Shown piece by piece: positions 7,595 to 26,593 of a stretch of 34,499 bases of DNA. Under the pieces are notes generated by a model. It worked only from the letters and a program-made list of their open reading frames with translations. It searched no databases and was not told where the DNA came from. Position 1 is the stretch's first letter, and every line of letters starts with the position of its first letter. This DNA comes from Candidatus Parcubacteria bacterium. GTDB lineage: Bacteria > Patescibacteriota > Patescibacteriia > PEXW01. The DNA lies in the NCBI GenBank assembly GCA_003597955.1, contig QZJU01000006.1, forward strand, positions 1 to 34,499, given 5' to 3'. The translations under genes and the position numbers were made by a program.

Positions 7595-10156
7595 ATGCCC
7601 ATTCCATACCTCAAACGCATCACTTACCGAAATCGCCTGCAAAAATCTTCCGACCCCGAATCCAAACCGGGTCGCTGGTTTAAAAACTGGAACAAAAAGA
7701 AGGTCTGGAGGGCTTTGGGTTTAATCGCCGCTTTCGGGGTTTTGGCTTGCGTGATTGTCGGCATAGGCGCCTTTGCGTGGATTGCCAAGGACTTGCCCGA
7801 TCCAAATAAGATTAAAGACCGGGCCGTAGCGCAAAGTACAAAAATTTATGCCCGCGACGGCGAGACTTTGCTCTATGATATTCACGGCGACATCAAGCGA
7901 ACGCTAATAAAATTGCAGGATGTTCCCGAGCACGTGCGGCAAGCCACCATCAGCCTGGAAGACCGGGAATTTTACAAACACGGCGGCATCAGCTTCCGGG
8001 GCTTGATCCGCTCCATAATTGTGGATATTTTTTCCGGCAGTAAGTCTCAGGGCGGCTCGACCATCACCCAGCAATTTGTAAAAAACTCGATCCTGACGAC
8101 TGAAAAAAAATTCACCAGAAAAATTAAAGAGATTGTTTTGGCTTATGAAATTGAAAAGCGTTTCAGCAAAGACGAAATTTTACAGCTGTACTTTAATGAA
8201 ATCCCGTACGGTTCCAATATTTACGGCATCGAGGCCGCGGCACAGAGTTTTTTTGACAAATCCGCCAAAGATTTAACCCTCTCTGAAGGCGCGCTTTTAG
8301 CGGCCCTGCCCCAAAGGCCCACCTATCTTTCGCCTTATGGCAACAATACCGATGCTTTAGTGGCCAGGCAACGGTATGCTTTAAACCTGATGTATGAGCA
8401 GGGCTTTATTGAGAAAGCCGAGTTGGATGGCGCTTTGGCCGTGGATATTTCCAAAAGAATCAAGCCCAAACGCGAACAAATGCGCGCGCCCCATTTTGTG
8501 ATGATGGTCAAAGAGCAGCTGGCTGACCGTTACGGCGAAGCGGTTTTAGAAAAGGGCGGCTTGAAGGTCGTCACCACCCTAGACTGGACCAAACAGGAAA
8601 TTGCCGAAAAAGCCATAACTGATTTGGTGGCAAAAAATGAAAAAAGCTACCGGGCCGAAAATGCGGCCATGGTGGCTATTGACCCAAAGACGGGTCAGGT
8701 CGTGGCCCTTGTCGGTTCGCGGGATTATTTCGACGCCACACACGATGGCAATGTGAATGTCGCTATTCGCGAAAGAAATCCAGGCTCGTCTTTTAAACCA
8801 GTGGTATATGCCACGGCTTTTAACAAAGGCTACGGCCCCGACACTCTGCTTTTCGATTTGGTGACTAATTTTGGCGGCAGCCCGGCCTACATTCCCAAAG
8901 ATTACGACGGCGGCGAGCGCGGGCCTGTGACTATGCGCAAGGCTCTGGCTGGTTCGCTTAATATCCCGGCGGTAAAAACCCTATATCTCGCCGGCATTCC
9001 CGAGGTTATTGATACGGCCAAAAAACTTGGCTACACTACTCTAACCGATCCAGACCGGTACGGCTTGGCTTTGGCTTTGGGCGCGGGCGGCGCAAAATTA
9101 ATCGAGCACACCAACGCCTTTGCGGCATTTGCGGCCAACGGGGTTCATCGGCCCATTGCAACGATTTTGAAAGTCGAGGATAAAAACAGAAAAATTTTGG
9201 AGCAATTCAAAGACCAGCCTGAGGAGGTTTTACCCAAGGAAGTTGTGGCCAACATTTTAAGCGTTTTGACCGACAACAATGCCCGCAGTTTTATCTTTGG
9301 TTCCCGAAGCCCTTTGGTTTTGCCTGATCGCACAGTTTTTGCCAAAACCGGCACGACCAACGACTGGCGCGATGGCTGGACCATTGGCGGCACGCCATCT
9401 CTGGTGGCGGGTTTTTGGGCAGGCAACAATGATTATTCGCCCATGGCCAAAGGCGCGGATGGTGTTTACGTGGCCGCCCCGGGCTGGAATAAATTTTTAA
9501 GCCAGGCCCTGAAGGGCAGCAAACGCGAATCCTACCCAAAGCCGCCCGAAAACAAAGCCGACAAACCGGTTTTGCAGGGCAAATTGACGGCCGAAGTTCC
9601 GGTAGCGGTTGATCGCGTTACAGGCAACCGCATTCCAGATGTGTGTAAAGAAACTTACCCCAAAGAATTTATTACCGAGGTTCTGATAAAAGAAGTTCAC
9701 GAAATCCTTCAGTACGTGAAAAAGGACGACCCGCAAGGCGCGGTCCCATCAAATCCGGCCAGCGATCCGCAGTACGCACGCTGGGAAGAGCCGGTCCAAA
9801 AATGGGCCAAGGCCAAAGGCTATGTGGCCAAAGAGCCGGATTTGGGCGATTGTAGTTTGCGCGATCCGGGCGCCGCGCCAACTGTTAATATTGTTTCGCC
9901 TACGCTAAACCAAACCGTAATCACAACGGTTTTGAGCGTGACGGCAAACGCGAGCGGACCGCGGGCCATCAGCAGGGTGGTTTACGCGGTTGATGATAAA
10001 GTGCTAGGTGAATCTTTGGTTGGCCCGGATTACTCAGTTAATCTGGATTTAACGGGCTTTGAAAGCGGTTTTCATACTTTGAGTGCGCAGGTTTTTGATG
10101 TGGTAGAAAATTCCGGTACCACCAGTCTGACTTTCAATTTTCTAATCAGTGGTTAG
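7595..10156 (+). CDS. Class A penicillin-binding protein (bifunctional transglycosylase/transpeptidase)
   Basis: An 853-residue PBP1A-type enzyme that polymerises and cross-links peptidoglycan outside the membrane. Order: basic cytoplasmic tail, one transmembrane helix (about 39-63), glycosyltransferase GT51 domain with the catalytic EDREFYKHGG (E122) and GGSTITQQFVKN, then the transpeptidase domain with S398-S-F-K401, an SLN triad element and K584-T-G-T. The last 90 or so residues, starting near TVNIVSPTLNQ, look like an Ig-type beta-sandwich, an addition seen in some Gram-positive and CPR PBPs. The ATG at 7595 is chosen because the earlier TTG overlaps the promoter. It converges on dnaN with a 12-nt gap and no obvious terminator between. 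Confidence 0.93.
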   Translation: MPIPYLKRITYRNRLQKSSDPESKPGRWFKNWNKKKVWRALGLIAAFGVLACVIVGIGAFAWIAKDLPDPNKIKDRAVAQSTKIYARDGETLLYDIHGDIKRTLIKLQDVPEHVRQATISLEDREFYKHGGISFRGLIRSIIVDIFSGSKSQGGSTITQQFVKNSILTTEKKFTRKIKEIVLAYEIEKRFSKDEILQLYFNEIPYGSNIYGIEAAAQSFFDKSAKDLTLSEGALLAALPQRPTYLSPYGNNTDALVARQRYALNLMYEQGFIEKAELDGALAVDISKRIKPKREQMRAPHFVMMVKEQLADRYGEAVLEKGGLKVVTTLDWTKQEIAEKAITDLVAKNEKSYRAENAAMVAIDPKTGQVVALVGSRDYFDATHDGNVNVAIRERNPGSSFKPVVYATAFNKGYGPDTLLFDLVTNFGGSPAYIPKDYDGGERGPVTMRKALAGSLNIPAVKTLYLAGIPEVIDTAKKLGYTTLTDPDRYGLALALGAGGAKLIEHTNAFAAFAANGVHRPIATILKVEDKNRKILEQFKDQPEEVLPKEVVANILSVLTDNNARSFIFGSRSPLVLPDRTVFAKTGTTNDWRDGWTIGGTPSLVAGFWAGNNDYSPMAKGADGVYVAAPGWNKFLSQALKGSKRESYPKPPENKADKPVLQGKLTAEVPVAVDRVTGNRIPDVCKETYPKEFITEVLIKEVHEILQYVKKDDPQGAVPSNPASDPQYARWEEPVQKWAKAKGYVAKEPDLGDCSLRDPGAAPTVNIVSPTLNQTVITTVLSVTANASGPRAISRVVYAVDDKVLGESLVGPDYSVNLDLTGFESGFHTLSAQVFDVVENSGTTSLTFNFLISG

Positions 10157-25557: not shown

Positions 25558-25665
25558 TATAATTATCTTGTTGGTAAACTGGAAATAAAAAATGTTATCA
25601 TTGAGGCTTTACCAACATAGTGAGGTCCCTTACCGCCAGTGGATTATCCCTGGCGGTATTTTTTT
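25558..25665 (+). ncRNA. Candidate small RNA unit, copy 1
   Basis: Extended -10 TGT-TATAAT (TATAAT 25558-25563); predicted start near 25570. GTTGGTAAA (25570-25578) pairs with TTTACCAAC (25608-25616), a 9-bp stem starting at the predicted 5' end. Then AGTGAGG, and TACCGCCAG/CTGGCGGTA (25631-25658, loop TGGATTATCC) followed by seven T, an excellent terminator. A 57-codon frame from ATG 25592 crosses the terminator, lacks a ribosome binding site and is not kept in copy 2, so RNA is favoured. Partner copy at 26469-26548. Confidence 0.5.
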
Positions 25666-25818
25666 GACATCAATATGTGCAAGGGATACGCTAAATCTAG
25701 CTTTTTTGACGAGTTCAAACCTCGCCCATGATGTCACAATTATGGTGATCAAATTGGAAGTTTAGCGTTAAAAAGCCTCGGCTGTATGGCTTTCCATTGG
25801 CCGGGGCGATTTTTATTC
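25664..25818 (+). other. Unassigned structured stretch with terminator
   Basis: TTGACA (25664-25669) begins inside the T-tract of the previous unit; 17 nt later TACGCT (25687-25692) could be a poor -10. ACGCTAAA (25688-25695) pairs with TTTAGCGT (25761-25768), closing a 65-nt region. It is followed by GCCTCGGC/GCCGGGGC (25775-25807, one wobble) and a T-rich run, a terminator. No coding frame is convincing. Possibly a further small RNA; function unknown. Confidence 0.35.
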
Positions 25819-25829
25819 TTTAAAAGCCC

Positions 25830-25858
25830 TTGACCCACAGCCAGCAATCAGGCAGTAT
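25830..25858 (+). promoter_or_regulatory. Probable ancestral tRNA-Glu promoter
   Basis: TTGACC (25830-25835), 17-nt spacer, CAGTAT (25853-25858). It ends 15 nt before the 5' tRNA-Glu fragment, where a tRNA promoter should be, and may still transcribe through the GIY-YIG gene into the intact tRNA. Confidence 0.45.
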
Positions 25859-25886
25859 TTATTTTGTATTTATGGCCCTATCGTCT

Positions 25887-25916
25887 TCCGCCAGAGGCGG
25901 ATCCGCTTTTAACGGA
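25887..25916. repeat. 30-nt twin-hairpin insertion 1
   Basis: TCCGCC-AGA-GGCGGA (15 nt) followed by TCCG-x7-CGGA (15 nt), inserted in the D-arm part of the tRNA fragment. Same 15+15 plan and length as insertion 3. Confidence 0.7.
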
Positions 25917-25926
25917 AACGGTTAGG

Positions 25927-25962
25927 CCTGCCCGCCGTACTCGCATACGCGAGGCAGGCGGG
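25927..25962. repeat. 36-nt palindromic insertion 2
   Basis: CCCGCC (25931-25936) pairs with GGCGGG (25957-25962) and CTCGC with GCGAG around ATAC; alternatively CCTGCC (25927-25932) pairs with GGCAGG. A single long hairpin, unlike insertions 1 and 3. It resembles GC-rich intergenic palindromes that I recall from other CPR genomes. Confidence 0.7.
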
Positions 25963-25974
25963 ACATCGGCTTTT

Positions 25975-26004
25975 TCCGGCAAAGCCGGACCCGGCTTCGC
26001 CGGG
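25975..26004. repeat. 30-nt twin-hairpin insertion 3, within the anticodon
   Basis: TCCGGC-AAA-GCCGGA followed by CCCGGC-TTC-GCCGGG: two perfect 6-bp stems with 3-nt loops, each 15 nt. It separates U35 from C36 of the anticodon in the tRNA fragment. Confidence 0.75.
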
Positions 26005-26026
26005 CAAGCCACCATAGCGCTTTTAT

Positions 26027-26287
26027 ATGTTCTACCTTTACATCATACAAAGCTTTAAGGATAAACGGTGGTATATTGGGATAACACAGGATGTGCAAAA
26101 TCGAGTTGCTAAGCACAATAGCGGGAGCGTGCGCTCTACCAAAGCCTTCCGACCCTATAAATTAATTTATACTGAAATTTTCAAAACAAAAACTGAAGCT
26201 CGTAAAAGGGAAATTACTTTAAAGCGTTCTGGATTACTTAGGAAGCAGTTAAAAGATAAACTCATGGCCCTATCGTCTAACGGTTAG
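26027..26287 (+). CDS. Single-domain GIY-YIG nuclease ending inside tRNA-Glu
   Basis: An 86-residue stand-alone GIY-YIG endonuclease domain (UPF0213/YhbQ-like size). FYLYII and WYIGIT (Y16-I-G18) form the GIY-YIG strands; R26 in QNRVAKHNSG, S37-T38-K39 and E62 in ARKRE match the catalytic Arg, the conserved STK and the metal-binding Glu. All key residues are present, so it should be active. The last six codons (ALSSNG) and the TAG stop are the first 22 nt of the intact tRNA-Glu. It lies between a 41-nt tRNA-Glu fragment and the intact gene, which suggests a mobile or homing role at this tRNA. No Shine-Dalgarno. Confidence 0.88.
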   Translation: MFYLYIIQSFKDKRWYIGITQDVQNRVAKHNSGSVRSTKAFRPYKLIYTEIFKTKTEARKREITLKRSGLLRKQLKDKLMALSSNG

Positions 26288-26340
26288 GACATCGGCTTTT
26301 CAAGCCGGTAATCGGGGTTCGATTCCCCGTGGGGCTACCA
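26266..26340 (+). tRNA. tRNA-Glu (anticodon UUC)
   Basis: A 75-nt gene with encoded CCA. Acceptor GGCCCTA/TGGGGCT (G1-U72 and U6-G67 wobbles), D arm GTC/GAC, anticodon stem TCGGC/GCCGG with loop TTTTCAA (anticodon TTC, reading GAA/GAG), and T arm CGGGG-TTCGATT-CCCCG. The cloverleaf is intact. The first 22 nt also encode the end of the GIY-YIG protein, and the first 41 nt are duplicated upstream. Confidence 0.96.
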
Positions 26341-26342
26341 AA

Positions 26343-26381
26343 ATGAGCGGGCATCACGAAGTGGTGGCCGATCATTTTTTT
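26343..26381 (+). terminator. Terminator after tRNA-Glu
   Basis: ATGAGCGGGCATCAC pairs imperfectly with GTGGTGGCCGATCAT around GAA (two mismatches, one wobble), followed by seven T. Confidence 0.7.
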
Positions 26382-26386
26382 CTTCT

Positions 26387-26399
26387 CGGGGAATCGAAC
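26387..26399 (-). repeat. Inverted 13-nt copy of the tRNA-Glu T arm
   Basis: CGGGGAATCGAAC is the exact reverse complement of GTTCGATTCCCCG (26317-26329) in the tRNA T arm. On minus it could be a relic of a second tRNA 3' part or an attachment-like sequence. Flanking cloverleaf parts are not recognisable. Confidence 0.5.
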
Positions 26400-26408
26400 G
26401 GGCGAGGA

Positions 26409-26427
26409 CGACTGCCAGTGGCAGTCG
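26409..26427. repeat. 19-nt palindrome with 3-nt loop
   Basis: CGACTGCC-AGT-GGCAGTCG, 8 perfect pairs, in the 312-nt gap after tRNA-Glu. Same compact three-base-loop style as the insertions in the tRNA fragment. The rest of 26428-26460 is GC-rich with no feature I can name. Confidence 0.5.
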
Positions 26428-26468
26428 ACGCCGCCTGTGCGCCGCAGTTTTAACGAAGGCGAATTTGC

Positions 26469-26548
26469 TATAATAAAAAACTTTATTTAAATGCAACGAA
26501 GCCAGTGAGGCGGTTTGGTGCCAGTGGATTATACCTGGCGGCATTTTT
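26469..26548 (+). ncRNA. Candidate small RNA unit, copy 2
   Basis: Extended -10 TGC-TATAAT (TATAAT 26469-26474) follows AAGGCGAATT as in copy 1. The transcript would run about 65 nt through AACGAAGCCAGTGAGG to the hairpin GCCAG/CTGGC (26520-26539, loop TGGATTATAC) and a T-run. The hairpin region, T-run and trailing TTGACA match copy 1 closely, while the middle differs in length and lacks the 9-bp 5' stem. The stem is weaker than in copy 1. Confidence 0.42.
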
Positions 26549-26593
26549 GTTTGACAGCATAAGCTCGAATTTTCTTGGCACGCGTTTTTAAAT

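Follow-up and report, generated by a model that had tools for sequence, protein, structure and literature searches.

SegB, a free-standing GIY-YIG homing endonuclease of T4-like phages, has been described as driving the amplification of a tRNA region (PMC13096335, in its passages on this enzyme). In fungal mitochondria, mobile endonuclease ORFs bring a spare end of the gene that they enter, and the relevant sections of one report describe this for atp6 of Allomyces and for atp6, atp9, cox2 and nad3 of Glomus (PMC3630166). The rRNA insertions of CPR bacteria also contain GIY-YIG ORFs, whose spread by homing is doubted in the corresponding part of the paper describing them (PMC11270868). A full-text search of openly licensed papers returned no account of tRNA cassettes that have cognate hairpins.

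We analysed a stretch of 34,499 nucleotides from a Candidatus Parcubacteria bacterium (contig QZJU01000006.1; hereafter, the window). The sole tRNA detected in the window by ARAGORN and Rfam is tRNA-Glu(TTC), which is also the only tRNA-Glu-like gene of the 990-kb genome, where the second-best match reaches 71% identity and the only other one is a broken copy of the same gene. The locus has the following features.

26266-26340, + strand: intact tRNA-Glu(TTC) (ARAGORN, Rfam)
26027-26287, + strand: GIY-YIG nuclease ORF of 86 amino acids (PF01541, E 2.7e-16)
25874-26010, + strand: broken 5' copy of tRNA-Glu (alignment z about 14-17 against shuffles)
25874-25886, 25917-25924, 25961-25974 and 26005-26010, + strand: tRNA-derived blocks of the 5' copy (tRNA nt 1-13, 14-21, 22-35 and 36-41), from the sequence
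25887-25916, + strand: insert 1, 30 nt, after tRNA nt 13; double hairpin TCCGCC-AGA-GGCGGA + TCCGCT-TTT-AACGGA with one mismatch in the second stem
25925-25960, + strand: insert 2, 36 nt, after tRNA nt 21; a longer palindrome of a different type, CCTGCC...GGCAGG
25975-26004, + strand: insert 3, 30 nt, between tRNA nt 35 and 36, in the anticodon; perfect double hairpin TCCGGC-AAA-GCCGGA + CCCGGC-TTC-GCCGGG

The broken copy is exactly 137 nt long and, after removal of the three inserts, retains 41 tRNA nucleotides without a single substitution, as the initial annotation had noticed. Local alignment of the tRNA-Glu 5' half with the upstream region gave a score of 53, compared to 15.5 ± 2.5 for shuffled sequences, none of 200 being as good. 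The stop codon of the ORF was likewise correctly placed inside the intact tRNA, where it occupies nt 20-22, and the final 22 nt of the ORF are shared with tRNA-Glu. What the initial annotation missed is the hairpin nature of the three insertions. Inserts 1 and 3 each consist of a tandem double hairpin of 30 nt, the form of insert 3 recurs at the equivalent position in other tRNA-Glu cassettes, and the region of the copy folds with -79 kcal/mol (shuffles, -53 ± 3.9 kcal/mol). The upstream copy had been interpreted as the old 5' half left behind after insertion, but it is more than a plain remnant and carries nuclease-specific hairpins at the presumed target motif. Two further proposals found no support. 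Cleavage near nt 41 is not indicated: most tRNA-Glu copies have the insert at the junction of nt 35 and 36, and in tRNAs of other kinds it occupies different motifs. A consensus sigma-70 scan of 25700-26550, which is a weak kind of evidence, returned no site for the old promoter suggested at 25830-25858.

The tRNA-Glu locus is flanked by a 45-nt direct repeat (25619-25663 and 26504-26548, 80% identical) comprising a hairpin and a T run, with a TATAAT-like stretch before each copy. Its core pattern occurs at only these two places of the genome. The repeat appears to be a separate terminator-like element, or may represent a pair of small RNA genes.

The window protein, as modelled with AlphaFold2 (pLDDT 85), has the GIY-YIG fold, with a single catalytic domain and two C-terminal helices. 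Its nearest solved relatives are UPF0213 proteins (PDB 1zg2, 1ywl), followed by SLX1 and I-TevI, and no NCBIfam model scored above its cut-off for this protein. Among 26 proteins, the catalytic-type residues Y5, Y16, R26 and H30 are invariant, and G18 and E62 are near-invariant.

The initial annotation had suggested looking for short GIY-YIG ORFs that overlap tRNAs elsewhere. From 19 genomes of the window's class, nearly all short GIY-YIG ORFs (a handful is missing) were collected, and in 27 of about 80 the ORF terminates -45 to +20 nt from an intact tRNA on the same strand, compared to about 0.1 expected by chance according to our estimate from tRNA density. Upstream of most of these 27 ORFs lies a hairpin-interrupted 5' copy of the same tRNA; across the 19 genomes, the isotypes with such a copy are Glu, Leu, Gly, Thr, Met, Phe, Asn, Lys, Gln, Trp, Arg and Ser. 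There is also a mirror form, in which the intact tRNA is followed by the ORF and then by a hairpin-broken 3' copy (Val, Cys and some Ser). Profile searches revealed further cassettes, including those on contigs labelled Lentisphaerae, Kiritimatiellae, Cloacimonadota and Omnitrophota, one contig being 1.17 Mb long. In total, 102 loci have a significant partial copy, 88 of them a 5' copy and 14 a 3' copy, with one frameshifted ORF contributing two of the counts. Because the profile searches enriched this set, only the first 19 genomes give a valid fraction of tRNA-linked ORFs. The original proposal of a cassette, made of a nuclease ORF and a tRNA 5' part that reconstitutes the tRNA, is therefore borne out by its repetition at many tRNAs, and this architecture is established directly. 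Duplication of the 5' rather than the 3' part holds for the window and for the 88 loci, but not for the mirror forms.

With a profile built from four tRNA-Glu-side proteins, 18 of the leading loci in 192 genomes, including the four seeds, are at tRNA-Glu. In a tree of 196 proteins (FastTree; short proteins and poorly resolved), the observed numbers of changes in tRNA linkage, in isotype and in form were each below those of all 200 shuffles, at 24 compared to at least 52 for tRNA linkage and 51 compared to at least 73 for isotype. Many short GIY-YIG ORFs (L063, L081, L085 and similar, with the type ...AREKQLKKWRREKK... as one example) lack a neighbouring tRNA, and the tRNA-linked and unlinked proteins lie apart on the tree.

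Nearly all partial copies are interrupted by hairpin inserts. Perfect tandem double hairpins occur 68 times in 617 kb of fetched sequence, mostly in tRNA copies, compared to three in shuffles. The partial copies contain 110 inserts and 165 mismatches over 4187 aligned nt, the latter count being biased low by the small gap-extension charge of the aligner, and in many copies the inserts are the sole difference from the intact tRNA.

The hairpins differ between nuclease subfamilies. Loops with TCATNCGA or TCGNATGA were found at 41 of 62 loci whose protein carries the C-terminal motif LKTTEG(K/R)RLLKQQ (TTEG), and at 6 of 145 other GIY-YIG loci (Fisher P 2e-21), these six being mostly decayed relatives or neighbours of a TTEG gene. 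The TTEG loci contain 86 hairpin copies in 35 kb. The match spans Ser, Gln, Lys, Arg, Tyr, Cys, Leu, Ala, Ile, Glu and Gly tRNAs; the hairpin loop tracks the nuclease subfamily and not the tRNA, a match that is directly established, as is the placement of the hairpins. The TTEG pair is usually 42 nt long, with the layout CG-N5-TCATNCGA-N5-CG-N5-TCGNATGA-N5-CG, and the opposite order was found 0 times. It sits at YT^CGA, which falls in the T-loop of most tRNAs and, with the same letters, in the anticodon loop of tRNA-Ser(CGA). Proteins of the Trp and Leu(TAG) types, represented by few loci, are associated with different hairpin cores. The link between hairpin and nuclease is weaker for the Glu-type subfamily of the window, since the hairpins there have a common form (6-3-6 twice) more than a constant loop sequence. 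Two simpler rules were considered and set aside: the protein tail encodes the identity of the tRNA in the Glu type, but not in the TTEG type, which occurs at many tRNAs and is tied to its hairpin; and the hairpin stem, which in fMet seems to be copied from the acceptor strand of the adjoining tRNA, does not follow this pattern in general.

The TTEG hairpin pair alone was then used as a search pattern against 380 genomes of the phylum, with the reversed pattern as a control. The pair was found at 15 places in 9 genomes, the control at none. Twelve of the 15 places are partial tRNA copies beside an intact tRNA, several of them without an ORF, and the other three have no tRNA gene nearby. These three (L263, L270 and L274) are all in one genome, G414, and two of them lie at GTGA^CG and GGTT^CG. 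The TTEG nuclease is present in five of the nine pair-bearing genomes and in 10 of the 371 others (P 5e-6); in the remaining four pair-bearing genomes, it was not found at E <= 1e-24.

A comparison with a related genome lacking the cassette, another of the checks originally suggested, was possible for two members of one genus. The tRNA-fMet gene is uninterrupted in G000 and carries a cassette in G001, with homologous flanks on both sides, and the intact tRNA of the filled locus matches the empty one over 71 nt, only the extra copy being broken. Both the empty site and the restoration of the tRNA are thus directly established. At tRNA-Gln(TTG), where G001 has the full cassette, all that remains in G000 is a GIY-YIG reading-frame tail preceding the tRNA; this decayed tail abutting the tRNA (L040, G000:C10) is a fossil cassette. 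The elongator tRNA-Met of G001 is preceded by two stacked 5' copies without an ORF, the nearer of which is resident sequence, the intact tRNA being different. Together, the empty fMet site, the Gln remnant and the stacked Met copies suggest that gain, loss and repeated invasion all occur. In the data at hand, in which the empty site is that at tRNA-fMet, nothing spoke for what the initial annotation had named as contrary outcomes, namely relatives without an empty tRNA-Glu site, no tRNA overlap at other GIY-YIG genes, or a tandem tRNA duplication unrelated to the nuclease gene.

Several loci of G000 have other arrangements. At L042 (1450-1690; G000:C14, about 8768-9008), a tRNA-Tyr is interrupted after nt 30, where a second, complete tRNA-Tyr with mutually complementary flanks lies; all copies are identical, there is no ORF, and the 3' half has a double hairpin at the anticodon. 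At L005 (2277-2475; G000:C20), a complete tRNA-Ala(TGC) lies within the anticodon of another tRNA-Ala and has the inverted flanks CGATAACTTTGGT / ACCAAAGTTATCG. At L016 (G000:C6, 83400-84530), an intact tRNA-Val(GAC) lies between two hairpin-broken copies, and a tRNA-Phe is followed by a broken 3' copy; for several intact tRNAs of this locus (Phe, Pro), leader and trailer lengthen the acceptor stem by about 10 bp.

Our best explanation, in which belief and doubt are about equally balanced, is that these loci are homing-like GIY-YIG cassettes that restore the tRNA that they invade and have cognate, apparently mobile hairpins. The unit would be a short single-domain GIY-YIG gene joined to part of the host tRNA, and its insertion would yield one intact tRNA and a leftover partial copy, mostly a 5' copy upstream or, in the mirror form, a 3' copy downstream. 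The nuclease may cut the tRNA gene at or near a short loop motif, the presumed site in the window being TTTT^CAA in the anticodon loop of tRNA-Glu. Repair from a cassette-bearing copy, with the tRNA halves as homology arms, would then copy in the ORF and restore the tRNA. The nuclease would also recognise its own hairpins, which would enter at the motif by a nuclease-dependent process in cis or in trans and be confined to copies that are spared by selection for a working tRNA. The presence of many hairpin-bearing partial copies without an adjoining ORF requires either action in trans or loss of the ORF. Simple homing by target destruction fails, because the intact tRNA of the filled locus retains the presumed target motif, and this retention is also the weak point of our explanation; with the intact copy unchanged, simple immunity via target disruption is insufficient. 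Protection of the filled locus could come from expression control, from protein bound to the neighbouring hairpins or from another DNA state.

A rather unlikely alternative is that the hairpins are a fixed immunity part of the homing cassette, which blocks re-cutting of the leftover copy and which drift and compensation have made different. A hairpin at a nuclease site has been proposed to block re-cutting in the case of the T4 MobA endonuclease and the gene 60 bypass hairpin. Fixed hairpins would fit the hairpins of independent cassettes at one motif (Glu 35|36), the association of hairpin type with nuclease type and the covariation of stems in related cassettes (L006/L056, L009/L108). However, retention of the site in the intact copy would leave this immunity incomplete, and the pairs occur in ORF-less tRNA copies and, for three of the 15 blind matches, without a tRNA gene in reach. 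In addition, the tRNA-Ser(CGA) cassettes of the congeneric G000 and G001 are orthologous by flank; one of their hairpins has compensatory stem changes and, in G001, an extra 22-nt hairpin with the same core in its loop. This fresh nested hairpin, the non-tRNA sites and the ORF-less copies favour moving hairpins over hairpins that are merely carried.

It is quite improbable that the hairpins act at the RNA level, with the hairpin-bearing fragment acting as a protein-binding leader that regulates translation of that protein, or else preventing misfolding with the tRNA, in which case the protein may act on RNA. The common form does place a strongly folding fragment in the likely 5' leader, some hairpin loops resemble a tRNA loop (TCGNAT and the T-loop TTCGAAT; CTTTAG and the Leu-TAG anticodon loop), and RNase P would remove the stop codon of an ORF ending inside the tRNA. 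Against this role, the same hairpins are found downstream of the tRNA in the mirror forms and in ORF-less copies, and the relatives SLX1 and I-TevI are known to cut DNA.

We regard as very improbable a natural cleave-and-rescue or defence system, in which any tRNA gene lacking protection, whether it belongs to the resident, to a competitor or to a phage, is eliminated by the nuclease, a functional tRNA being provided by the cassette. The tRNA is single-copy here and presumably essential, and some loci combine a foreign intact tRNA with a resident-type broken copy (elongator Met of G001), but in most loci the broken copy equals the intact one, so that the rescue copy is not resistant by sequence, and a search of viral contigs for Ser-type GIY-YIG proteins returned none. 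Scarcely credible, and largely refuted, is neutral decay of ordinary tandem tRNA duplications in palindrome-rich genomes, with the nuclease gene present by chance or hitch-hiking: ORF-less duplications do occur and 46 of 97 control windows have a perfect hairpin, but the excess of tandem double hairpins in tRNA copies, the many insertions relative to mismatches with many copies free of mismatches, the binding of loop type to nuclease type and the far from random placement of the ORF relative to the tRNA all contradict it.

With more doubt than conviction, the tRNA-restoring cassettes can be read more broadly. GIY-YIG nucleases and their cognate hairpin pairs would then represent a new class of mobile system, in which the nuclease has two kinds of recognition target, a tRNA loop motif and hairpins that mimic it, hairpins are put or let into tRNA genes in cis and in trans, cassettes rebuild the tRNA, and a code between C-terminal helix and hairpin loop sets the specificity. 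If true, this would show how selfish nucleases persist in essential single-copy tRNA genes without death of the host, and would explain why many small GIY-YIG proteins have an odd C-terminus encoded by a tRNA and why Patescibacteria genomes contain broken tRNA copies. It would also provide a natural set of nucleases with a readable pairing of protein tail and DNA hairpin, a code that could be tested with small proteins and short oligonucleotides.

The cassettes share features with several known systems. As with SegB, the GIY-YIG gene adjoins tRNA genes of many isotypes (PMC13096335); a conserved catalytic GIY-YIG domain and the existence of alleles with and without the gene at one site (fMet) are also shared with this type of enzyme. 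Unlike in the SegB type, the filled allele here retains an intact target (fMet, 71 nt). SegB is phage-borne, and the passages describing it report no insertion-duplicated tRNA half or hairpins (PMC13096335), whereas the cassettes here are bacterial, chromosomal and located at single-copy tRNAs. The short GIY-YIG proteins of UPF0213 (PDB 1zg2, 1ywl), nearest in sequence and fold, are labelled hypothetical. The initial annotation had rightly set the cassette apart from introns and integrase islands. In the window, Rfam detects no intron RNA but only the tRNA, which is restored in DNA, unlike with a group I or II intron; the inserted unit contains no integrase and has only the GIY-YIG ORF between the broken copy and the tRNA, unlike a tRNA-integrating genomic island. 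As in the REPIN/RAYT system, inverted hairpin pairs with a conserved head are bound to one enzyme subfamily, but RAYT is a tyrosine (HUH) transposase and REPINs lie between genes (PMC3116915), whereas here the enzyme is a GIY-YIG nuclease and the hairpins lie in tRNA copies. The GIY-YIG ORFs of CPR rRNA insertions come from the same bacteria and also reside in structural RNA genes without a recognisable intron; their host is rRNA, and the relevant part of the report gives no duplicated gene part (PMC11270868). The mobile ORFs of fungal mitochondria enter protein genes and duplicate 3' ends, and the sections describing them mention no hairpins in the displaced part (PMC3630166). Like these ORFs, the cassettes combine an endonuclease ORF with a duplicated part of the target, the native part being displaced and the gene restored (PMC3630166); a gene-restoring 5' or 3' tRNA part was found at the 102 loci, and the likeness is one of working rather than of demonstrated kinship.
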